From Wenzhouxiangella marina (GTDB taxonomy: Bacteria > Pseudomonadota > Gammaproteobacteria > Xanthomonadales > Wenzhouxiangellaceae): DNA of 64,000 nucleotides. The position numbers and the translations under genes were made by a program. Where the stretch lies: NCBI RefSeq assembly GCF_001187785.1, contig NZ_CP012154.1, forward strand, positions 1,110,501-1,174,500. Direction: 5' to 3'. Positions 27,975 through 40,346 of the stretch are shown here, one piece after another. The notes under the pieces were generated by a model. It saw only the letters and a program-made list of their open reading frames with translations, was not told the origin of the DNA and did not search any database. Positions within the stretch are counted from its first letter, which is position 1. The number at the start of each line of letters is the position of its first letter.

Positions 27975-28066
27975 GGGGCGGGAGTGTAGCCGATCGGCGT
28001 CACGAACTCGCCAGCGATCGGCCGGTCTGGCATGCTTGCAGACGGACTTGATGGTTGAGGGTCTCC

Positions 28067-30730
28067 ATGTCGATCCGCTATCTCGACAAGCTGTTCCGCC
28101 CGCACTCGGTGGTCGTCTTCGGAGCCTCCGAACGTCATGACAGCGTGGGGCGGGCCGTGTTCTCCAATCTGCTGGCCGCCGGCTTCCAGGGCGAGGTTCG
28201 GGCGATCAACCCGAAATACCGCGAGGTCCAGGGGCAACCCTGCTACCACGAACTGTCCGAGCTGGATCGGGTCCCGGATCTGGCGGTGATCTGCACGCCG
28301 CCAGCGACCGTGCCGGGCATTATCGAAGCGATGGGTGAGGCCGGCGTTCGCGCCGCCGTGGTGATCACCGCCGGCTTCGAGGTCGAGGCCACGGGAGGCC
28401 CGCGCCATCGCCAGGCCATGCTCGAAGCCGCCGGCCGCCATGGCATCCGACTGCTGGGGCCGAACTGCGTCGGCCTGCTCCTGCCCGGCGTGGGTCTGAA
28501 CGCCAGCTTCGCGCCCGAGATGGCCCGCTCCGGCGGTATCGCCTGCATCGCCCAGTCGGGCGGCCTGGCCACCTCGATCCTCGACTGGGCCGCCAGCCGC
28601 AACATCGGCTTCTCGGCCTTCGTCTCGATGGGCAACTGCCTGGACGTCGACATTCCCGACGTGGTCGACTACTTCGGTGCCGATGCCGGCACGCGCGCGA
28701 TCCTGCTCTACGTCGAATCGGTCGGTGATGGCCGCAAGTTCCTGTCGGCGGCCCGCGCCGCTGCGCGCAACAAGCCGATGATCGTGGTCAAGTCCGGGCG
28801 CGTGGCCGAGGGCGCGCGGGCGGCCCTGTCGCACACGGGTTCCCTGACCGGCCGCGACGATGTCTTCGACGCGGCCCTGCAGCGCTCGGGCGCCCTGCGC
28901 GTCTATGGCATCGAGGACCTGTTCAGCGCCGCCGAACTGCTGGCCCATGCCCAGCGCCTGTCCGGGCCGCGCCTGGCGATCCTGACCAACACCGGGGGCG
29001 CCGGCATCCTCGCCACCGACGCGCTGATCCTCGGCGGCGGACAACTGGCCGAGCTGTCGGAGGCCACGCTCGAGCGCCTGGACGCCTGCCTGCCGGTCAA
29101 CTGGTCGCGCGCCAATCCCGTCGACATCATCGGCGACGCCGAGGCCGATCGTTACCTGGAGGCCTTCGAGCTCCTGGCCGCCGACGAGGGTGTCGACGCC
29201 ATCCTGCTGGTGCACGCTCCGACCGCGATGGTCGAGACCGAGGCCCTGGCCAAGGCCTTGGTGCCGGTCGCTCGCGAGGCGCGTCCTGCCGTGCTCGGCT
29301 GCTTTCTCGGTGGTGAATCGGCTCGGCGCGCCGCCCGGCGCTTCAGCGCGGCCGGCCTGGCCAGCTTTTCCACGCCGGAGGACGCGGTCAAGGCCTTCCT
29401 GCAGCTCGATGCCTACCATCGCAACCAGGCCAGCCTGACCGAGATCCCCGACAGCCGGCCCCAGGACTTCGAGATCGATGTCGCGGGGATCGGCGAGCGG
29501 ATCGGCTGTGTACATGAACAGGGCCGACGCTGGCTCAGCGAGGCCGAAGCCAAGGCCGTGCTGACCGAGGTCGGCATCCCCGTCGTCGAAACCCGGATCG
29601 TCGGCAGCGCCGAGGATGCAGCCGGCGAGGCGGCCGAGATCGGCTTCCCCGTGGCCCTCAAGGTGGTCTCCTCGAAGATCACCCACAAGTCCGACATCGG
29701 CGGCGTCGCGCTGGACCTGGAAGGGCCCGAGGCCGTCCGCGAGGCCGCCCGCCGCATCGAGCGCCTTGCCCGCCGAGCTGGTTTCGATGACATCGACGGC
29801 TTCGCGGTCCAGCCGATGGTCCGCCGACCCGACGCGCTGGAGCTGATCCTCGGCGCCAGCACCGACCCGATCTTCGGACCCGTGCTCATGTTCGGCCAGG
29901 GCGGTACGGCGGTCGAGGTGCTGGCCGACCATGCGCTGGCCCTGCCGCCACTCAACCGCAAGCTGGCCGGCGAGCTGATCGATCGAACTCGCGTGGCCCG
30001 CTTGATGGCCGGTTACCGTGATACGCCGCCCGTCGATCGCCAGGGCGTGATCGATGCCTTGCTCAGGCTGTCGGCCCTGGTGCTCGCCGAACCGAGAATC
30101 GAATCGCTGGACATCAACCCGCTGCTGGTCGACTCGGAAGGCATCGTCGCGCTCGACGCGCGCATCGAGCTTCGGCAGGATCCGAGTCCAAGACCGCGTC
30201 CGGCGATCGCACCCTATCCAGACCACGAGCGCGAGACCTTCGAGTTCCAGGGGCACCCGATCGAGATCCGACCGATCCGCCCCGAGGACGAACCCGCCCA
30301 CGCCGAATTCTTCGACAGCCTGGACGTCGAGGACGTGCGCTTCCGCTTCTTCGGTGTCATCCGCCACCCGGAACACGGTCAGATCGCCCGCTTCACCCAG
30401 ATCGATTACGACCGCGAGATCGCCTTCATCGCTGCCGAGCTCGATCCGCCGCATCGCACCCTGGGCGTGGTCCGGGCCGTGCTCGATCGGGCTCATCGCC
30501 GTGCCGAATTCGCCGTCGTCGTGCGCTCGGCGATCAAGGGCGGTGGTCTGGGCAAGCGGCTGTTGGTCAAATTGATCGACTACTGCCGGCGCGTCGGTGT
30601 CGAGCACCTGGTCGGGCAGGTCATGCAGGACAACACGCGCATGCTTTCCCTGGCCCGTGAGCTGGGCTTCGAGCTCGGGCCGGCGGAGGAGGGCGTCCAC
30701 TCGGTGGTGCTAGAGTTGCAACCGGACTGA
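28067..30730 (+). CDS. Pat-type protein acetyltransferase with ADP-forming acyl-CoA synthetase domain
   Basis: 887 residues. An N-terminal CoA-binding and acyl-CoA ligase part (SVVVFGASERHDSVG, then ICTPPATVPGIIEAMGEAG, LSHTGSLTGRDDVFDAAL), an ATP-grasp-like part (about 470-700, VALKVVSSKITHKSDIGGV) and a C-terminal GNAT domain (about 730-887; GGGLGKRLLVKLIDYCRR is the acetyl-CoA loop). Such proteins acetylate lysines, notably of acetyl-CoA synthetase, and switch acetate use. The start at 28067 has GAGG six bases upstream. The histidine in SHTGS may mean that the synthetase half is still active, unlike in some Pat enzymes; this needs an alignment. Confidence 0.9.
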   Translation: MSIRYLDKLFRPHSVVVFGASERHDSVGRAVFSNLLAAGFQGEVRAINPKYREVQGQPCYHELSELDRVPDLAVICTPPATVPGIIEAMGEAGVRAAVVITAGFEVEATGGPRHRQAMLEAAGRHGIRLLGPNCVGLLLPGVGLNASFAPEMARSGGIACIAQSGGLATSILDWAASRNIGFSAFVSMGNCLDVDIPDVVDYFGADAGTRAILLYVESVGDGRKFLSAARAAARNKPMIVVKSGRVAEGARAALSHTGSLTGRDDVFDAALQRSGALRVYGIEDLFSAAELLAHAQRLSGPRLAILTNTGGAGILATDALILGGGQLAELSEATLERLDACLPVNWSRANPVDIIGDAEADRYLEAFELLAADEGVDAILLVHAPTAMVETEALAKALVPVAREARPAVLGCFLGGESARRAARRFSAAGLASFSTPEDAVKAFLQLDAYHRNQASLTEIPDSRPQDFEIDVAGIGERIGCVHEQGRRWLSEAEAKAVLTEVGIPVVETRIVGSAEDAAGEAAEIGFPVALKVVSSKITHKSDIGGVALDLEGPEAVREAARRIERLARRAGFDDIDGFAVQPMVRRPDALELILGASTDPIFGPVLMFGQGGTAVEVLADHALALPPLNRKLAGELIDRTRVARLMAGYRDTPPVDRQGVIDALLRLSALVLAEPRIESLDINPLLVDSEGIVALDARIELRQDPSPRPRPAIAPYPDHERETFEFQGHPIEIRPIRPEDEPAHAEFFDSLDVEDVRFRFFGVIRHPEHGQIARFTQIDYDREIAFIAAELDPPHRTLGVVRAVLDRAHRRAEFAVVVRSAIKGGGLGKRLLVKLIDYCRRVGVEHLVGQVMQDNTRMLSLARELGFELGPAEEGVHSVVLELQPD

Positions 30731-30748: not shown

Positions 30749-32203
30749 ATGGACCATCGAATCAAGCTCCCCGCAGTTCTCGTCGCCGGGCTCGTCGCGC
30801 TGCTGACGGCCTGCGGTGGCTCCGAGCCCGATGATGACCTGGCCGAGGTGCTGGCGCCCGAGGTGGCCGAATGGACCGGCGACCTCGAAGGCATGCTCGA
30901 GCGGCGCCAGATCCGCGTCCTCGTCCCCTACAGCCGCACCTTTTTCTTCATCGATGCCGACGGCACCCAGCGTGGCCTGTCCCAGGCCTTCATGGAGGCC
31001 TTCGAAGCACGTCTCAACGAACGCTACGACACCGGGCCGCTGCCGGTGCGCATGGTCTACATCCCGGTCACGCGCGATCGGCTGATTCCCTGGCTGCTGG
31101 ACGGTCGGGGCGATGTCATCGTCGCCAACCTCACCGTGACCGAGGCGCGTGCAAGCGACGTCCTGTTCACCGAACCGGTGCGGCGCGGAGTCAAGGAAGT
31201 GCTGGTTTCCGGCCCCTCGTCCGAACCGCTGGCCTCCATCGACGAGCTGGCCGGGCGCAGCGTCTACGTGCGTGAGCAATCGAGTTTCCACGACAGTCTG
31301 ATCGCGCTCAACGAGCGCTTCGCCGAGCGCGGCCTGGCCCCGGTCGACCTGGAACTCGCGCCGGATCACTTCGAGACCGGCGATGTGCTCGAAATGCTCA
31401 GCACCGGCGTGGTCGAGCTGGCCGTGGCCGATGATCACCTGGCGCGCTTCTGGGCCCGGGTGCTGCCGGACCTGAGGGTGCACGAAGACCTCGTGCTCAG
31501 AAGCGGCGGGGACCTGGCCTTCGCGGTTCGGCCCGGCAGTGAGCGACTCAAGGACGAGCTGGACGAGTTTCTGGAAACGCACCGGGCCGGCACCCTGTTC
31601 GGCAACATCGCCTTCGAGCGCTACCTCGAAGACACGCGCTGGGTGCTCGATCCCGAACGCGACGCCCAGATGCGCCGCTTCCGCGAGCTGGCCGGCCTGT
31701 TCCAGCGCTTCGGCGAGGAGTACGAGCTGGACTGGCTGCTGCTGATCGCCCAGGGCTACCAGGAATCACGCCTGGACCACAGTGCCCGTTCCCCGGCCGG
31801 GGCCGTCGGCATCATGCAGGTGCTGCCGGCCACCGCCGTCGAGATGGGCGTCGAGGACTACACGGAGCTGGAAGGCAATATCCGCGCCGGCGCTCGCTAC
31901 CTGCGCTGGATGATCGACCGCTACTACGCCGATGAACCGATGGATGAGGACAACCGCCTGCTCTTCGCCTTGGCCTCCTACAACGCCGGTCCCCGGCGCG
32001 TGCGCGAGCTGCGCCAGGAAGCCGAGGCCGAGGGGCTCGATCCCGACGTCTGGTTCGACAACGTCGAATACATCGCCGCGCGCCGGATCGGCCGCGAGAC
32101 CGTCGACTACGTCAGCAATATCTTCAAGTACCACGTCGCCTTTCGGCTGATCGTCAGCGGTCGTTCCGCGATCGACTCGCCCCTGCACCTCGACGGGGTC
32201 TGA
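30749..32203 (+). CDS. mltF: Membrane-bound lytic murein transglycosylase F
   Basis: A lipoprotein that cuts peptidoglycan glycan strands and forms anhydro-muramic ends. 484 residues. Lipobox LTAC near residue 22, a periplasmic solute-binding-like domain (about 45-290), then an SLT domain with the catalytic glutamate in YQESRLD, followed by GAVGIMQVLPATA and ALASYNAGPRRV. It lies 18 bp after the acetyltransferase and 29 bp before uppP, so the three may share a transcript; the uppP link makes sense for wall turnover. Confidence 0.94.
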   Translation: MDHRIKLPAVLVAGLVALLTACGGSEPDDDLAEVLAPEVAEWTGDLEGMLERRQIRVLVPYSRTFFFIDADGTQRGLSQAFMEAFEARLNERYDTGPLPVRMVYIPVTRDRLIPWLLDGRGDVIVANLTVTEARASDVLFTEPVRRGVKEVLVSGPSSEPLASIDELAGRSVYVREQSSFHDSLIALNERFAERGLAPVDLELAPDHFETGDVLEMLSTGVVELAVADDHLARFWARVLPDLRVHEDLVLRSGGDLAFAVRPGSERLKDELDEFLETHRAGTLFGNIAFERYLEDTRWVLDPERDAQMRRFRELAGLFQRFGEEYELDWLLLIAQGYQESRLDHSARSPAGAVGIMQVLPATAVEMGVEDYTELEGNIRAGARYLRWMIDRYYADEPMDEDNRLLFALASYNAGPRRVRELRQEAEAEGLDPDVWFDNVEYIAARRIGRETVDYVSNIFKYHVAFRLIVSGRSAIDSPLHLDGV

Positions 32204-32232: not shown

Positions 32233-33030
32233 ATGGATTGGATTCAAGCCCTCTGGCTCGCCCTTGTCCAGGGCTTGACCGAATTTCTGCCGGTGTCCAG
32301 CCAGGCCCACCTCGTGCTTGCCTCCTTGCTGAGCGGCGAGGTCTATCAGGGCCTGGATTTCGACATCATGCTGCACGCGGGCTCCCTGGTCGCCGTCGTG
32401 CTGTATTTCCGAAGCGAGCTCATCCAGATGGCCCGCGACTGGCTGCGCTCCCTGGTGGGCGGTCCGAAGACGCCGGACTCGAAGCTCGCCTGGTGGATCA
32501 TCCTGGCGACGATTCCGGCCGGCATCGCCGGTCTGCTGTTCAAGGATCACGCCGAGGCCGCGCTGCGCAGCCCGGTGATCATGGCCTGGGCCCTGATCGC
32601 CTTCGGCCTCGCCCTGGGCTGGGCCGACTGGCGCTTCCGCGGCCAGCGCGACGAGCATTCCCTTCGATTGCGCGACGTGCTGATCATCGGCCTCGCCCAG
32701 GCCCTGGCCCTGATCCCGGGCACCTCGCGCTCGGGCATCACCATTACCGCCGCCCTGTTCCTGGGCCTGAATCGTGAGTCCGCCTCGCGCTTTTCCTTCC
32801 TGCTGTCGATCCCGATCATCGCCGCCGCCGGTCTGCTCGCCGCCCTCGACCTGTCCGAATCGGGCTTCGAGTCCGGCTTCGGCGTGCTGTTCATCGGCTT
32901 CCTGGCCGCAGCCATCAGCACCTACGCCTGCATCCACTACTTCCTGGCCTTCATCAAGCGGATCGGCATGCTGCCCTTCGTGCTCTACCGGGTGTTTCTG
33001 GGTCTCCTGCTGCTGGGGTTTGCCCTGTAG
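32233..33030 (+). CDS. uppP: Undecaprenyl-diphosphatase
   Basis: Dephosphorylates undecaprenyl pyrophosphate so that the carrier lipid can be reused in wall synthesis; also linked to bacitracin resistance. 265 residues with about eight membrane segments. Conserved motifs: GLTEFLPVSSQAHL (with the catalytic glutamate) and PGTSRSGITITAALFLGL. The alternative name is bacA. Confidence 0.96.
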   Translation: MDWIQALWLALVQGLTEFLPVSSQAHLVLASLLSGEVYQGLDFDIMLHAGSLVAVVLYFRSELIQMARDWLRSLVGGPKTPDSKLAWWIILATIPAGIAGLLFKDHAEAALRSPVIMAWALIAFGLALGWADWRFRGQRDEHSLRLRDVLIIGLAQALALIPGTSRSGITITAALFLGLNRESASRFSFLLSIPIIAAAGLLAALDLSESGFESGFGVLFIGFLAAAISTYACIHYFLAFIKRIGMLPFVLYRVFLGLLLLGFAL

Positions 33031-33101
33031 CAGAGCGTTCGGCGAGGCCATTGCTTCCATCGACATGCAGGTCGCTTGAACCCTGGCCCTTTCCGAGCAC
33101 T

Positions 33102-34700
33102 TCAGTCGAGATCGTCGGGCACGAAGGCGGCTGGCAGCAGCTCGGCGATGGCGTGGTCCTCGATGGTCATGCCGTGGTTGTCGAGCAGGTGGACCCGTGC
33201 ATCCGGGCCTGAGAATTCCAGCAGGCGCTGACGACAATCGCCGCAAGGCGCGCAGAGGCGCCCCCCGGGGGCGAGGATGTGCACGCGGCGGATCTCGCGT
33301 TCGCCCGCCGCGATCATGGCGGAAATGGCCGAAGCCTCGGCGCAGACGCTCTTGTAGTGGGCGGTTTCGACGTTGCAGCCGCCGAACCAGTGGCCATTCC
33401 TCGTCTCGATCAGGGCGGCGACGGTGAAGCCGGAGTAGGGTGCGTAGGCGCGGTCTCTGAGCTTGTGCAATTGCTCCAGGCGCGCCTTCGCCAGCGGCAG
33501 AAAGCTCAGTCCGGCGTCCATCGGGGGCAGTCCGAAGTGTTCGGCCAGGGTCTGACCCACGTCGGCAAAGCTCTCCCGTCGGCCCAGCGAGCCGGCCGGC
33601 AGGCCGGCGCCCAGGGCGAGCACCGGGATGAACTCACGCGTGTGGTCGCTCCCTTCGAAGCTCGGATCGCAGCCGTGGTCGGCGACCAGGATCAGCAGGT
33701 CGTCGGGTCGCAGCCGTTCGATGATCTCGGGCAGGCGGCGATCGAAGGCTTCGAGGGCGGCGGCGTAGCCCGCGGTGTCGCGACGATGGCCGTAGAGCAT
33801 GTCGAAGTCGACCAGGTTGGTGAACACCAGGCTGCGCTCGCCGGCCTCGTCCATGGCGGCCAGGGTGGCGTCGACCAGGGCCTCGTTGCCGTCGGCCTTG
33901 ATGACCCGGGACACGCCACGGTGAGCGAAGATGTCACCGATCTTGCCGATGGCGAGCACCTCGCCTCCGGCATCGAGCAGCTTGTCCAGCACGGTCGGGG
34001 CGGGCGGCTCGAGGCTGTAGTCGCGGCGGTTCCCCGTGCGCTGGAAGCCGCTGTCGACGTCGCCGACGAAGGGGCGGGCGATCACCCGGCCGACGCGATC
34101 GTCCATCAGCAGTTCGCGCGCGATCTCGCAGACCCGGTACAGGCGATCCAGACCGAAGTGCTCCTCATGAGCGGCGATCTGGAACACGGAGTCGGCGGAG
34201 GTGTAGACGATCGGCTTGCCGGTCTCGATATGTTGGGCACCCAGACGCTCGATGATCTCGGTGCCCGAAGCGTGGCAGTTGCCGAGCACGCCCGGCAGCT
34301 CGGCGCGCCGAATCAGGGCCTCGAGCAGTTCCTCGGGAAAGCTCTCGGTCTTGTCCGGAAAATAGCCGAAGTCCTCCAGCACGGGGACGCCGGCCAGCTC
34401 CCAGTGGCCGGAGGGCGTGTCCTTGCCGGTGGAGCGTTCGGCCGCGTGAGCCCAGGCGCCCTCCGGTTGCTCGATCAGCTCGACCCCGGCGGCCACCTGA
34501 CCGGTGGCTTCGGCATGGGCGTGGAACAGGCCCAAACGGGCCAGATTGGGCAGCTGCAGCGGGCCTCGGTCGAGTTCGCCGCTGACACAGGCGGCGGCGA
34601 TATGACCGAGCGTGTCGGCTCCGGCATCGCCGAAGCGCGCGGCATCGGGGGCCGCACCGATGCCGAAGGAGTCCAGAACGAGAACGATGGCGCGGGGCAT
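33102..34700 (-). CDS. deoB-cdd: Phosphopentomutase-cytidine deaminase fusion
   Basis: One uninterrupted 532-residue frame with two enzymes. Residues 1 to about 395 are phosphopentomutase (deoxyribose-1-P to deoxyribose-5-P): metal Asp10 in [11 protein letters not shown], the phosphorylatable threonine in [23 protein letters not shown] and [18 protein letters not shown]. Residues about 405-532 are cytidine deaminase: [13 protein letters not shown], then Cys453-Ala-Glu455 and PC486GDC489RQ, the three-cysteine zinc site with the catalytic glutamate. Both active sites look intact. Last gene of the deoC-deoA-deoB::cdd operon, 4 bp after deoA. I know of these enzymes as separate proteins; the fusion joins the first and third steps of deoxycytidine breakdown. 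Confidence 0.95.
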
Positions 34701-34704
34701 GGTC

Positions 34705-36018
34705 TCAGACCTCGATGCGTTCGGCGATCAGGGCCGGTGCCTCGGCGCCCGCGGCGCTGATCCGATAGGCCCGGCGCAGAGCCTCGCCGACGCGCTCGGC
34801 CTCGCTTTCCTTGCGGGCATGGATGCGCAGCAGGGGGCGCTGGGCATCGACCTCATCGCCGATGCGGGCCAGACCGCTGAGACCCACGGCCGGGTCGATG
34901 GCATCGCTGGCCTGTCGGCGTCCGCCGCCGAGCTCGATCACGGCCAGGCCCAGGGCGCGGACGTCGATGGATTCGATGCGACCGCTCTCCGATGGATAGA
35001 GATCCACCTCCACCGGCGCTCGGGCCAGGTGCTGATCCGGGCGCTCCATCAGGTCCGAGGGCCCGCCCAGGGCGTGCACCATGCGCGCGAAGCGCTCGGC
35101 GACGGCCCCGCTGGCCCAGGCTCGATCGAGGCGATCGCGAGCCTCGGCAGGGTCGGCGTCGAGGCCGCCGATCAGGAGCAGTTCGGCGCTGAGCTCGCGG
35201 CTGAGTTCGAACAGGCGTCCGGTCGGCGAGGGTGTGTTCAGCAGCTCGATGATCTCGCGAATCTCCAGGGCGTTGCCGGCGGTCCGGCCCAGGCCCTGGT
35301 TCATGTCGGTCAGCAGGGCGCGGGTCGGCGTGCCCGCCGCGCTGGCGGTCCGGGCCAGGGCGATGGCCAGTTCCCGGGCCGGCTCGAAGTCGGTCATGAC
35401 CGCACCCGAGCCGAACTTGACGTCCAGCACCAGGCCGTCGAGGCCCTCGGCCAGTTTCTTGCTGAGGATCGAGGCCACGATCAGGGGCAGGCAGTCGACC
35501 GTGCCGGTCACGTCGCGCACCGCGTAGAGCCGCCGGTCGGCCGGCGCCAGGTCGCTGGTCTGGCCGATGATGGCCACCCCGAGTTCGCGGACGATCCGGT
35601 CCAGGCGATCCGGGTCCGGGGCCGTGTCGTAGCCGGGGATGCTCTCTAGCTTGTCGCAGGTGCCGCCCGTGTGACCGAGGCCGCGTCCGGTGATCATCGG
35701 CACGTAGGCCCCGCAGCAGGCCAGCCAGGGCCCGATCAGGAAAGAGGTCGAATCGCCGATGCCGCCGGTGGAGTGCTTGTCCAGCACCGGTCCGTCCAGC
35801 CCCGGCCATTGCATGACCCGGCCGGAATCGCGCATCGCCTCGGTCAGGGCGACGGTCTCGGTCCGGTCCATGCCCTGGATCGCCACGGCCATGGCGAAGG
35901 CGCCGAGCTGCTCGTCACCCAGGCGACCATCGGCCATGCCCTCGACGAGGAAGTCGATCGCCACGCGCTCCAGCGTCTGGCCGTGGCGCTTGGCGAGCAG
36001 CAGTTCGCGCGCCAGCAT
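34705..36018 (-). CDS. deoA: Thymidine phosphorylase
   Basis: Phosphorolysis of thymidine or deoxyuridine to base and deoxyribose-1-phosphate. 437 residues, standard length. Family stretches: [68 protein letters not shown]. The start at 36018 overlaps the deoC stop (TGATG), indicating translational coupling. Its product is the substrate of the adjacent phosphopentomutase domain. Confidence 0.97.
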
Positions 36019-36773
36019 CAGCCCTGGCCCTCTGGCAGGCGGCCGATCAGATCGTCGAGGAGGCTGGACGCTCCGAAGCGAAAATGCTCGGGATCGGCCC
36101 AGGCGGGGCCGAGAATCTCGTCGGCCAGGCACAGGTAGACGGCGGCATCCTCGGTGGTCTTCAGACCGCCCGAGGCCTTGAAGCCGGCATTGGCGCCGCG
36201 ATCGCGGATCAGTTCGAGCAGCACTCGCGCGGCCTCAGGCGTGGCGTTGACGCGGACCTTGCCGGTCGAGGTCTTGAGGAAGTCCGCGCCCTGGTCGAGG
36301 GCGATCGATGCGGCCTCGAGGATCGCTTCGGGCCTGGCCAGTTCACCGGTCTCGAGAATCACCTTCAGGCCATGTTCGCCGCAGCGTTCGCGCGCGGCCC
36401 TGACCAGCTGCTCGCCCGCGCGGCGATCACCGGCCAGCAGTGCGCGCCAGGGAAAGACCAGATCGATCTCGTCGGCGTCATCGCCGAGGGCGCGGTCGAT
36501 TTCTGCAAGGACCTCGCTTTCGCGTCCATCGCCACCGGGGAAATTGACCACGGTGGCCACCCGCACCGCCCGCGTGGCCGGGTTCGCGCGCAGCGTCGCC
36601 ACCGCGAGCTCGACGAAGCGCGGATAGACGCAGACGGCCGCCACCGGCCCGGCCGGGGTGCTCGCGCGCTGGCAGAGCTCGACGATGCGCTCGTCGCTAT
36701 CGTCGTCGTTGAGGGAGGTCAGATCGACCAGGGCGATGGCCCGCCGGGCGATCCGATCCAGGTCCTGATTCAT
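36018..36773 (-). CDS. deoC: Deoxyribose-phosphate aldolase
   Basis: Splits deoxyribose-5-phosphate into acetaldehyde and glyceraldehyde-3-phosphate. 251 residues. The Schiff-base lysine is in DFLKTSTGKV; other conserved parts are VDLTSLND, AVCVYPRF, VVNFPGG and GFKASGGLKT. First gene of the deo operon here. No repressor, purine phosphorylase or nucleoside transporter gene is adjacent. Confidence 0.96.
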   Translation of the reverse strand: MNQDLDRIARRAIALVDLTSLNDDDSDERIVELCQRASTPAGPVAAVCVYPRFVELAVATLRANPATRAVRVATVVNFPGGDGRESEVLAEIDRALGDDADEIDLVFPWRALLAGDRRAGEQLVRAARERCGEHGLKVILETGELARPEAILEAASIALDQGADFLKTSTGKVRVNATPEAARVLLELIRDRGANAGFKASGGLKTTEDAAVYLCLADEILGPAWADPEHFRFGASSLLDDLIGRLPEGQG

Positions 36774-36823
36774 GCGTCGGTCTCCAGTCGCGGCGAGCGC
36801 TCGGGGCTTTCGGACGGCGGGGC

Positions 36824-37579
36824 TCAGAGCCTCAGGCCGCCGTCGACGGCCAGATCGCGGCCATTGAAGTAATCGTTCTCGATGATAAATCGAATTGCAT
36901 CGGCCATTTCCTCGGGTTCTGCCATGCGGCCGGCTGGAATCTGCGCGGCGATCCGCTCGATGGCCGCTTCGGGCATGGCGGCGACCAGCTCGGTGCGGGT
37001 GAAACCCGGCGAGAGCGAGGCCGCGCGGATGCCATGGCGGGCGAGTTCCTTGGCCCAGGTCACGGTCATCGCTGCCACGCCGGCCTTGGCGGCCGAGTAG
37101 TTGCTCTGGCCGAAATTGCCGCCCCTGGAAATGCTCGAGACATTGATGATCAGGCCGGGACGGTCAAGGCGGAGTAGATGGCTGGCGGCTTCGCGTCCGC
37201 ATAGGAAGACGCCGGTCAGATTGACGTCGATGACCTGCTGCCAGTCACGCAGCGAGAGCCGCTCCTCGAGCGCACCACCGCCGCCCTTGACGAGCAGACC
37301 GTCGCGGGTGATGCCGGCGTTGTTGACCAGGACGTCGAGTCCGCCGAGGGCGCTGACGAGCGCATCGAAGGCGCGCTCGACCTGCGCCTCGTCGGCCACG
37401 TTGGCCACGGCGCTCGCGTGGCCTTCGCCGGGCAGGGCGTCGAGGCTCCGGGCGAGGGCGTCCTCGTCCAGGTCGATCAGCCCGATGCGCGCACCGCGCG
37501 CGGCCAGGTCCATGGCGGCGGCTCGGCCGAGTCCTCGGGCGGCGCCGGTGATGATGATGCGTCTGTGGTCGATGTTCAT
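36824..37579 (-). CDS. Short-chain dehydrogenase/reductase, FabG-like
   Basis: A classical SDR of 251 residues. Cofactor motif TGAARGLG, NNAG at the fourth strand, the catalytic Ser in INVSSISRGG, and YSAAK giving Tyr and Lys. An aspartate in LIDLDED at the end of the second strand suggests NAD(H) preference. The insert LLVKGGGGALEERLSL after NNAGITRDG is longer than usual. Start at 37579, with a poor Shine-Dalgarno. It precedes deoC by 50 bp on the same strand, but a role in deoxyribose use is not evident; a beta-ketoacyl reductase or another alcohol dehydrogenase is possible. Confidence 0.85.
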   Translation of the reverse strand: MNIDHRRIIITGAARGLGRAAAMDLAARGARIGLIDLDEDALARSLDALPGEGHASAVANVADEAQVERAFDALVSALGGLDVLVNNAGITRDGLLVKGGGGALEERLSLRDWQQVIDVNLTGVFLCGREAASHLLRLDRPGLIINVSSISRGGNFGQSNYSAAKAGVAAMTVTWAKELARHGIRAASLSPGFTRTELVAAMPEAAIERIAAQIPAGRMAEPEEMADAIRFIIENDYFNGRDLAVDGGLRL

Positions 37580-37628
37580 GAAAGGGGTTCCGTTTCTCGA
37601 GGCCAGGGAGCGGGGCAGGCCGGTCGGC

Positions 37629-40346
37629 TCAGTGCTCGGCCCTGGCAAAGGCGCTGAACCAGTCCGGCAGCTCCTCGGGCGGCCGGGCCGGACTGAACAG
37701 GTAGCCCTGGGCCAGATGGCAACCATGGGCCAGCAGCATGCGGACCTGCTCGGGGCTGTCGACGCCTTCGGCGATCACGCCGAGCTTGAGGTCGTTGGCC
37801 ATGCTGATCACGGCCGCGACGATCGCCGCATCGTCGTCGTCCGTGGCGAGATCCGAGACGAAGCTGCGGTCGATCTTCAGGCCGCTGATATTGAAGCGCT
37901 TCAGGTAGGCCAGGCTGGAGTAGCCGGTGCCGAAATCGTCGATTTCGACCCGGATGCCCAGGCGGCTGAACTCATCGATCAAGGCAGCGGCGTGTTCGGC
38001 ATCGTGCATCAGCGCGCTCTCCGTGAGTTCGATGGTCAGCAGCCCGGCCGAAAGGCCATGCCGCTCCAGGGCGCTGGCGAGCACATTCGACAGGGTGCCT
38101 CGCCAGAGCTGCAGCGGCGAGACATTGACCGAGACGGCCAGGCCGGCCAGCGGTCCGCTCTGCCATTCGGCCAGCTGGCCGCAGGCCTCGTCGATGACCC
38201 AGTCACCGATGTCGACGATCAGCCCGCTCTGCTCGGCGATGGGGATGAACTGATCCGGCGGCACCTGACCACGTTCCGGATGGCGCCAGCGCAGCAGGGC
38301 TTCGAAGCCCACGACCTTGTGTTCGGCCAGATCGACCTGGGGCTGGAAGTGCAGCTGGAACTGCTTGTTGCTCAGGGCTTCGCGCAAGTCGCGCTCGAGC
38401 AGCAGCCGCTCGTGGGCCTGGGCATTCAGATCGGGCGTGAAGAACTGGAAATTCGAGCGCCCCTTGTCCTTGGCCAGGTACATGGCGGCGTCGGCATTGC
38501 GGATCAGCTCTGCAGCCGTCGTGGCGTCGCCGGGGAACAGGGCGATGCCGATGCTCGACGAGATGCGTAGATCGTGATGGTCGATGTGGAAGGGCTGGGC
38601 CATCATGTCCAGCACCCGCTGGGCGCCATGGGTGGCGCTGGATTCTCCGGCGTGGTTGAGCAGAATCAGGAACTCGTCGCCACCCTGGCGGCAGACCATG
38701 TCGCCCTGACGGAGCTGTTCGCGCAGGCGGCTGGCGACCTGGGCGAGCAGGCGATCACCCGTGTCATGGCCGAGGGAATCATTGATGGTCTTGAAGTGAT
38801 CCAGGTCGAGGAACAGCACCGCCAGTTCCTCGCCACTGCGCTGGGCCTGCGCCAGGCTGGAACTCAGATGCTCGTTGAACAGGGTTCGATTCGGCAGGCC
38901 GGTCAACGCATCGTAGTGGGCCAGCCGGTGCACTTCGTGTTCGGCCTGCTTGCGTGCCGTGATGTCGTAGATGACGCCATCGAAATACCGGATCCGTCCG
39001 TGCTCGTCGGTGACCGCCACGGCGTTGTTGACGGCCGTGAAACGGCTGCCGTCATTGCGTATGAATTCGACTTCCATGTCATTGTAGAAGCCATCCTCTT
39101 CGAGCATCCGGAGCAAGTCCTCGCGCTGCCCCGGATCGGCGTAGAGCAGGGGGCCGGCATCGCGGATCATCTGCTCGGGCCGATCGAAGCGGAACATGCG
39201 GGCCAGCGATCGATTGACATAGACCAGGCCTTCTTCCGGCGTGCCGCGATAGATGCCCTCGAAGATGTTGTTGGTGATCGACGAGAGCAGGGCCTCGCTG
39301 TCGCGGTAGGCCTCCCGCATCCGTTCTGCCAGACTCTCGGCGCGCAGGCGGTTGCACAGCAGCAGGAAGAGCACGAAGGCGGTCAGGGCGGTGCCGACCA
39401 GTCCCGAGCTGAGCGCGATCCAGGGGGCGGCGCCGAGACTGCGCGGCTCGCGCAGGACCAGTTCCCAGCGCTTGTTCGCGGCCTGGAAGCGCACGGCCTG
39501 TTCGATCAGGGTCCCGGTGCCCTGCTCGAAGGAATCGCCGAGCCGGAAGACCGGTGATGCTTCGCTTTCCGCCAGATCGTGGATCTCCAACTCGATCCGA
39601 TCGCGAGCGGGCAGGGGAATGCTGAACAGGGCCTGGGCTGAAATCGACGCGCTGACCCAGCCCCCGTTGTCGAACAGGCCGGCGGGGAGACCCGACACCC
39701 AGGCCACCATGACGTAGCCGGGCGTTCGGACTCGGTCCGGCGAGACCAGATCCAGGCGGCGAGAGACCACCACGCTGCTGCGCTCGCGAGCGAGGCGCAG
39801 TGTGTCGGTCATGTTGTCGACACGACAGACGTCCACCCCGATCGAGTCACGGTTTCGGTCCAGGGGCTCGTTGTAGACGATGGGGCAGACCCAGTCGCCG
39901 TTGCCCCTGTCCAGGCGAGCGAAGCTCAGTCCGTCGGCCGCGACGCGCTCCCGCAGCGCTGCCAGGTCCTGGGGACGCAGTCTCGCGATCCAACCCAGAC
40001 CAGCCAGGCCGGCAAAGTCCTGCTGACCCAGAATCGTCTCCGAAAACTGCCGCCACTCTTCGCGCGTGACCCATTCGGAACTGGCGAACAGGGCGTGCGC
40101 CGAACCGATCAGGGTCTCGTACTGGGCAAATCGCGTGCTGATGATGGCGGCCGCCTGGTCCGCCTGTCGAGCCAGCACGCCCTGCTGTCGCCGGGTCTCG
40201 ACGTCCACCAGCCAGGCCGTGACCCAGGCCGTCAGCGCGATGCCGACCGCCGCGAGCGCGAGCGCCGTGAGCAGTGCGCCCCGTTCGCTGCGCAGCAGGC
40301 TGGACCGACCCTGGCCCGGTTCGCGAGGCGGCGACAGGTCGCTCAC
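37629..40346 (-). CDS. CHASE-PAS-GGDEF-EAL cyclic di-GMP protein
   Basis: A 905-residue membrane sensor. A membrane segment (about 25-47), a periplasmic CHASE domain (about 75-290, with GLAGLGWIARL), a second membrane segment (about 310-335), a PAS domain (about 350-480), a GGDEF domain with intact GGDEF near residue 555, and an EAL domain with FEALLRW near 679, followed by ELTESALM, EIDDFGTGYSSL and KIDRSFV. Both catalytic motifs look complete, so the net activity (synthesis or breakdown) cannot be told from sequence. The CHASE domain suggests a small extracellular ligand. Confidence 0.93.
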   Translation of the reverse strand: MSDLSPPREPGQGRSSLLRSERGALLTALALAAVGIALTAWVTAWLVDVETRRQQGVLARQADQAAAIISTRFAQYETLIGSAHALFASSEWVTREEWRQFSETILGQQDFAGLAGLGWIARLRPQDLAALRERVAADGLSFARLDRGNGDWVCPIVYNEPLDRNRDSIGVDVCRVDNMTDTLRLARERSSVVVSRRLDLVSPDRVRTPGYVMVAWVSGLPAGLFDNGGWVSASISAQALFSIPLPARDRIELEIHDLAESEASPVFRLGDSFEQGTGTLIEQAVRFQAANKRWELVLREPRSLGAAPWIALSSGLVGTALTAFVLFLLLCNRLRAESLAERMREAYRDSEALLSSITNNIFEGIYRGTPEEGLVYVNRSLARMFRFDRPEQMIRDAGPLLYADPGQREDLLRMLEEDGFYNDMEVEFIRNDGSRFTAVNNAVAVTDEHGRIRYFDGVIYDITARKQAEHEVHRLAHYDALTGLPNRTLFNEHLSSSLAQAQRSGEELAVLFLDLDHFKTINDSLGHDTGDRLLAQVASRLREQLRQGDMVCRQGGDEFLILLNHAGESSATHGAQRVLDMMAQPFHIDHHDLRISSSIGIALFPGDATTAAELIRNADAAMYLAKDKGRSNFQFFTPDLNAQAHERLLLERDLREALSNKQFQLHFQPQVDLAEHKVVGFEALLRWRHPERGQVPPDQFIPIAEQSGLIVDIGDWVIDEACGQLAEWQSGPLAGLAVSVNVSPLQLWRGTLSNVLASALERHGLSAGLLTIELTESALMHDAEHAAALIDEFSRLGIRVEIDDFGTGYSSLAYLKRFNISGLKIDRSFVSDLATDDDDAAIVAAVISMANDLKLGVIAEGVDSPEQVRMLLAHGCHLAQGYLFSPARPPEELPDWFSAFARAEH

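Follow-up and report, generated by a model that had tools for sequence, protein, structure and literature searches.

A deoB-cdd fusion gene in a deo operon and its predicted product, a phosphopentomutase-cytidine deaminase

Why would two enzymes that do not act one after the other in deoxycytidine breakdown be made as a single protein? This question is raised by a gene in a 64-kb stretch of the Wenzhouxiangella marina chromosome (hereafter the window, GC content of 66.5%). An earlier note, made from the letters of the window, described the gene as a phosphopentomutase (DeoB) and a cytidine deaminase (Cdd) fused in one protein. Both enzymes are textbook ones; their fusion joins non-consecutive steps. 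We found no description of a DeoB-Cdd fusion in the open-access literature; the family-architecture databases lay outside this search, and a prior listing there is possible. Based on the analysis reported here, we consider it very likely that the product is a bifunctional phosphopentomutase-cytidine deaminase, which arose from fused neighbouring, overlapping deo genes and has two independent active sites.

One reading frame with two complete enzymes

The deoB::cdd fusion gene lies at 33102..34700 on the reverse strand, with its ATG at 34698-34700 and its stop codon at 33102-33104, and codes for 532 amino acids. The list of open reading frames and the search with family profiles agreed that both domains are complete and stand in one uninterrupted frame, the phosphopentomutase first, as the earlier note had claimed. 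That note had also pointed to the region between residues 395 and 410 as the place where a missed stop might be found; the deposited sequence has no stop codon there. With the whole fused protein as the query, only one match was obtained in its own genome (3,675,202 bases in a single contig), and three further PF00383 loci of the same genome remained unmatched in this search. Two in-frame internal start codons, ATG394 and TTG411, are present in the gene. Proteins of solved structure matched in two blocks, phosphopentomutases at residues 3-402 and cytidine deaminases at about 406-531. The gene was thus confirmed as a genuine two-domain DeoB-Cdd fusion.

The phosphopentomutase domain comprises residues 1-401 (33498..34700, reverse strand) and was delimited with the use of NF003766, TIGR01696, and phosphopentomutases from the PDB. 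The NCBIfam profile NF003766 matched residues 1-401 with 567.9 bits (cut-off 256) over positions 3-392 of its 396, TIGR01696 scored 514.4 bits (cut-off 341.2) over positions 1-379 of 381, and the Pfam Metalloenzyme profile was above its cut-off at residues 3-392. In PMC10121223, the active site of the B. cereus enzyme is given as D13, T85, D156, D286, H291, D327, H328, and H339. The corresponding residues of the fusion, assigned by eye from the structure-match alignment, are D10, T95, D170, D300, H305, D341, H342, and H353, which agrees with that list; the same paper prints A327 for B. cereus next to E. coli D347. T95 sits within [11 protein letters not shown], and the conserved DeoB end, GLSFL, is found in the correct frame as residues 397-401. 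In comparison with known phosphopentomutases (EC 5.4.2.7; B. cereus 3m8w, S. mutans 3m7v), the match is nearly end-to-end, and the active-site residues and the fold are alike. Unlike them, the fusion carries a second enzyme at the C-terminus, and the solved phosphopentomutases match only up to residue 402. We infer that the DeoB half is a phosphopentomutase, predicted to interconvert (deoxy)ribose-1-phosphate and (deoxy)ribose-5-phosphate.

The cytidine deaminase domain comprises residues 408-532 (33105..33479, reverse strand), as indicated by NF004064, the zinc and catalytic residues, and the fold match. NF004064 matched residues 411-531 with 107.5 bits (cut-off 74) and PF00383 (dCMP_cyt_deam_1) residues 408-497 with 42.9 bits (cut-off 25), while TIGR01354, at residues 409-530, gave 112.2 bits, slightly below its cut-off of 113.65. 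The CxE and PCxxC motifs are kept with their zinc and catalytic residues (C453, E455, C486, and C489), and N443 and E445 are also present. Together with D10 and T95 of the first half, the four residues of these motifs were the visible catalytic residues that the earlier note had claimed to be kept, and all of them are there. In the case of the tetramer-type Cdd (EC 3.5.4.5; B. subtilis 1jtk), the zinc ligands, the catalytic Glu, and the fold are the same. The fusion's Cdd differs from the B. subtilis enzyme in the lack of its own start and in Ala456 (33333-33335), which follows the catalytic Cys-x-Glu at a position that, by alignment, would be that of Arg56. The Cdd consensus of a 34-row alignment is Arg at this position. 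According to the entry titles, structures of B. subtilis Cdd have been solved with R56A (1uwz) and R56Q (1ux0), and Ala is also found in the Cdds of the sister-genus and family-level relatives G128 and G181. Therefore, Arg after the catalytic Glu is not a strict criterion for a Cdd. Ala456 of the fusion may be seen as a natural counterpart to the R56A protein. In the Cdd tree, the fusion's Cdd was grouped with the Cdds of its genus and family (99*) and is thus the local gene; its end branch of 0.56 was the longest among them. Taken as a whole, the half looks like a tetramer-type cytidine deaminase with predicted activity.

An AlphaFold2 model of the fusion, built from the same 34-row alignment, had a mean pLDDT of 91.1 and a pTM of 0.86, with both folds confident. 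In it, the last DeoB helix spans residues 379-388 and the first Cdd helix residues 405-416, which leaves about 16 residues between them, and the block mean pLDDT was 91 for residues 391-400 and 83 for residues 401-410. Foldseek with this model found B. cereus phosphopentomutase, with a best E of 1e-47. The cytidine deaminases that it found, at E values between 7e-13 and about 1e-11, were those of B. subtilis, mouse, and human. The ratio of Cdd to DeoB protein distance was 1.39-1.73 in the six pairs that include the window; where both genes are separate (fifteen pairs), it was 1.02-2.13. In each pair, the third codon position was the most variable in both halves. From the distance ratios and the third-position variation, neither half looks released from selection, and both appear maintained.

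The deo operon and its neighbours

Two genes of the same pathway lie upstream on the reverse strand: deoC for deoxyribose-phosphate aldolase (251 aa, 36018..36773; TIGR00126, 192.7 bits, cut-off 117.3) and deoA for thymidine phosphorylase (437 aa, 34705..36018; NF004490, 560.2 bits, cut-off 269). The junctions of 1-4 bp stated in the earlier note were found as a one-base overlap followed by a 4-bp gap. The deoC stop TGA (36018-36020) and the deoA ATG have one base in common, and the deoA stop is 4 bp from the ATG of the fusion. A short-chain dehydrogenase gene (FabG-like; 36824..37579, reverse strand; NF006072, 333.1 bits, cut-off 298) precedes deoC at a distance of 50 bp. On the downstream side, the cluster ends at the convergent uppP for undecaprenyl-diphosphate phosphatase (32233..33030, forward strand; NF001393, 355.9 bits, cut-off 284). 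A sigma-70-like promoter was sought in 32900-38000, and none was found. Two further frames of the window are on the forward strand. The first (28055-30730, 891 aa) resembles, by eye from its translation, an NDP-forming acyl-CoA synthetase joined to a GNAT acetyltransferase, and the second (30749-32203) is an MltF-like lytic transglycosylase, whose 165 bits fall far short of the 354 bits that the MltF profile requires.

Cdd converts (deoxy)cytidine to (deoxy)uridine, from which DeoA releases uracil and deoxyribose-1-phosphate. DeoB then converts deoxyribose-1-phosphate to deoxyribose-5-phosphate, and DeoC splits the latter into acetaldehyde and glyceraldehyde-3-phosphate. The reading of the operon as one for deoxycytidine breakdown, in which DeoA acts between the two fused, non-consecutive steps, holds.

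Unfused relatives and the origin of the fusion

The fusion was found in one of 30 genomes of the genus, that of the window itself, the species being represented by this one strain; any match was obtained in 16 of the 30, and a deoB sequence is present in 15. In six relatives (G003, G010, G011, G017, G025, and G027), cdd directly follows deoB, two bases out of its frame. In five of them, the TGA that ends deoB and the ATG of cdd overlap as ATGA, and in G017 the sequence is TAATG. The pair is preceded by deoA and deoC in five of the six; the contig of G017, which shows only the deoB end, stops before them. The same genes thus occur in the same order as in the fusion, but they encode two proteins in different frames with an overlapping stop and start. 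Other arrangements were also observed. In G002, G013, and G018, deoD stands between deoB and cdd, and in G005 deoD follows deoB and the contig then ends. No cdd was found in the about 1.5 kb of sequence covered in G006, G016, and G020, and the stretch of G023 is 281 bases long.

The deoB/cdd junction of the fusion (33480..33497, reverse strand) consists of 18 nt coding for residues 402-407, PLAKAR, at the place where the relatives have the deoB stop and the cdd start. Counted from match ends and gaps, 15-21 nt lie between homologous residues in the window and 41-56 nt in the six relatives. The window is shorter by a net 38 nt in comparison with five of them and by 20 nt in comparison with G027, and both values are 2 modulo 3. 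The comparison thus shows that the stop and the start were lost and that cdd came into the deoB frame, through a small deletion or through several indels that add up to the same net change; we infer a single deletion.

A small indel error as the cause of the joined frame was rejected, based on the 20-38 nt difference and on the layout of starts and stops in the other frames. Because the DeoB frame is correct through residues 397-401, the error would have to lie after GLSFL, and with an indel after residue 401 DeoB would end at residue 430 or past 600. The other two frames have no ATG, GTG, or TTG at residues 379-417. Their sole start within 373-417, TTG378, runs into a stop codon at 398, and the only cdd start remaining after such an indel would be the in-frame TTG411.

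In the order (250 genomes, 133 of them matching), the matches listed contained no fusion other than that of the window, and none other was seen in the class (370 genomes, 51 of them matching at 1e-20). The earlier note had held that absence of the fusion from all close relatives would speak against it. Across the genus this absence is literally the case, but it does not refute the fusion, since six relatives carry unfused precursors and separate fusions exist in Clostridia. Two long frames were rejected as deoB fusions: in G066 (910 aa), a run of N joins deoA and deoB, and in G174 (963 aa), DeoB has a chance upstream extension and deoD comes next. The two relatives with Ala at the residue-456 position have deoC-deoA-cdd clusters without deoB (loci L041 in G128 and L040 in G181). 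No deoB match was among the matches listed for G181 and G128 (85% and 94% complete, respectively), so deoxyribose-1-phosphate may need another mutase there.

DeoB-Cdd fusions in other bacteria

The genome_contigs collection was scanned for a DNA pattern of a DeoB end and a Cdd start at the distance seen in the fusion. The pattern requires a TGC codon and a nearly identical junction length, so other fusions are missed by it. It gave 54 loci, many of them from Gemmatimonadota and Clostridia by title, with the window's own record perhaps left out. A stop in the DeoB frame was present at 53 of the 54, and a few loci, such as L068 and L074, were unlike deoB. A clean fusion of 528 aa was found at L071 (Clostridiales bacterium Tb.RUG.63, JAEEYP010000064.1, genome G615), in a cluster that reads by eye as deoC-deoD-[deoB::cdd]-two small genes-deoA. 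In the order of G615, 136 of 295 genomes matched at 1e-30 (G615 included), and fusions were found in G615, G636, G632, and G706; 22 of the 136 were read at the junction and the rest were judged from match tables, where fusions with split matches could escape. In the class of G615 (391 genomes), where matches were counted at E <= 1e-168 only and split matches escape, there were three: G615, G1455 with a fusion, and G1443 with one stop. DeoB-Cdd fusions are thus present in at least five Clostridia genomes (G615, G636, G632, G706, and G1455), in which errors are possible; G615 is a metagenome-assembled genome. Like the gene of the window, these fusions have DeoB before Cdd in a single stop-free frame; they differ from it in their separate places in the DeoB tree and in their junction lengths.

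The catalytic residues are kept in the aligned fusions, except that Ser replaces the phosphorylated Thr in G632 and G1455 and that G706 lacks the DeoB end. The motif is GKDST in the fused DeoBs of G632 (L123) and G1455 (L140), and GKDTT, GKDTI, GKDTV, or GKDTP-like in the other fusions; unfused Gemmatimonadota DeoBs also read GKDST. The G706 fusion (L121) breaks off before the final part of DeoB, and its Cdd starts soon after FTAIGAW. In G617 (L106), deoB is apparently frameshifted into two frames, perhaps by an assembly error, and cdd is in frame past one stop. Several further candidates were rejected. One stop separates in-frame adjoining genes in G885, G673, G716, G704, G653, and G1443, as well as in the Gemmatimonadota genomes G1087 and G931, and several stops lie between the two genes in G872. 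The Cdds of G505 and G675, found in long frames, do not share their frame with a DeoB.

The phylum of L052, a record from Gemmatimonadaceae, was covered with 298 genomes, of which 159 matched at 1e-30. The matches listed contained no fusion, and neither did the 10 of the 159 that were read as sequence (G1087, G931, and eight with long frames, described below); the rest were judged from match tables, where fusions with split matches could escape. In the case of plasmids, the ten matches listed were all DeoB-only, and 2 of 101 records covered at least 80% of the query at one place. Among phages, six of ten matches listed were DeoB-only and four (Listeria) reached residue 431, and 5 of 27 records covered at least 80% of the query at one place.

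Recurrence of the fusion on trees

Rows for the DeoB trees were chosen from the loci at hand, so that near relatives of the fusions are over-represented, and the fused rows were identified before tree building. From 62 and 60 loci, trees of 61 and 59 rows were obtained, one row shorter than 300 aa being dropped in each. On the careful 61-row tree, the six fused rows need six state changes, at least five of which are forced by strong branches. A single clade of the five Clostridia fused rows was rejected on this tree (p-AU 2.6e-05), as was one of all six (p-AU 6e-60). For the 59-row tree, which was made more quickly and has five fused rows, the number of changes was five, of which at least three are forced. 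Since a change may be a gain or a loss (fission), "at least five changes" is a firmer statement than "five fusions". A small Cdd tree, also with five fused rows, needs only three changes, and at least two of these are forced. On it, the Clostridia fused rows cluster beyond chance (16 of 500 shuffles were as low), and the tree is short and weakly supported; it speaks less for separate origins. Judging from the DeoB trees, DeoB-Cdd is a recurrent architecture, which distantly related bacteria seem to have joined separately.

Possible role of the fusion and alternative explanations

In the explanation that we favour, a net loss of 38 nt took away the deoB stop together with the cdd start that it overlapped and gave one frame, in which each half would keep its own active site; the activities are predicted from the intact residues and folds. 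The Cdd half would make (deoxy)uridine, the separate DeoA would act next, and then the DeoB half and DeoC. By analogy with the tetrameric Cdd family, the Cdd half is probably still tetrameric, with four DeoB arms on one Cdd core. The fusion would fix a 1:1 ratio of the two steps, and channelling would not be needed. Several points stand against this explanation, namely that ATG394 or TTG411 could yield a free Cdd, the presence of Ala456, the shortfall with TIGR01354, and the longest Cdd end branch. The earlier note had proposed a complex with DeoA or mere co-regulation; co-regulation of neighbours followed by fusion fits the evidence at least as well as a DeoA complex. The recurrence of the architecture may leave room for a selective benefit.

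A benefit of this kind could lie in physical coupling, where Cdd and DeoB are held together and DeoA docks between them in a small metabolon. The repeated origin speaks for such coupling, with six changes on the 61-row DeoB tree, at least five of them forced, and the single clades rejected. Nevertheless, we consider it unlikely, because deoB adjoins cdd in many lineages and a stop is kept at 53 of 54 pattern loci, the fused steps are non-consecutive, and DeoA has a gene of its own both here and in L071, the one Clostridia cluster that was read for it. The adjacency of deoB and cdd in several lineages, often with an overlap, would make an accidental fusion easy and offer many chances for it. 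A broader proposal, that the joining was selected several times and that DeoB and Cdd flank DeoA in an assembly for deoxycytidine degradation, which is a non-covalent metabolon elsewhere, seems to us decidedly unlikely.

The gene could also give two products, the full-length protein and a free Cdd from an internal start, with the fusion as a by-product of a deletion after which Cdd was still translated from the shared transcript. The in-frame ATG394 and TTG411 lie just before and at the Cdd start, and the cdd of the six relatives begins where deoB stops. However, no good ribosome-binding sequence was seen by eye, with GGAG only 3 bases before TTG411 and none before ATG394, and we regard this possibility as very doubtful. 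Finally, that an assembly or sequencing artefact joined two separate genes is extremely improbable: although none of the other genomes among the 30 of the genus has the fusion, the gene differs from five relatives by 38 nt and from one by 20 nt, not by a single base, an indel after the DeoB end would leave a long DeoB tail and only TTG411 as the cdd start, the genome is one contig and 99.99% complete, and separate DeoB-Cdd fusions occur elsewhere.

Fused and split pairs, found in the same operon and the same genus, offer a test of stoichiometry against assembly around the middle enzyme and against chance. For annotation, the fusion calls for caution, as a gene named "phosphopentomutase" may carry the cytidine deaminase of its genome. 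Long frames in Gemmatimonadota are a trap for fusion calls. Eight of them (G939, G949, G951, G992, G935, G1121, G1172, and G991; 650-764 aa) were rejected as fusions, since they end at the DeoB C-terminus and cdd is in another frame. Their lengths are 749-764 aa, that of G1172 being 752 aa, or 652 aa within the stretch taken. At these loci (L142-L149), the Arg/Ala-rich part upstream of DeoB reads by eye as an out-of-frame translation, perhaps of alanine racemase.
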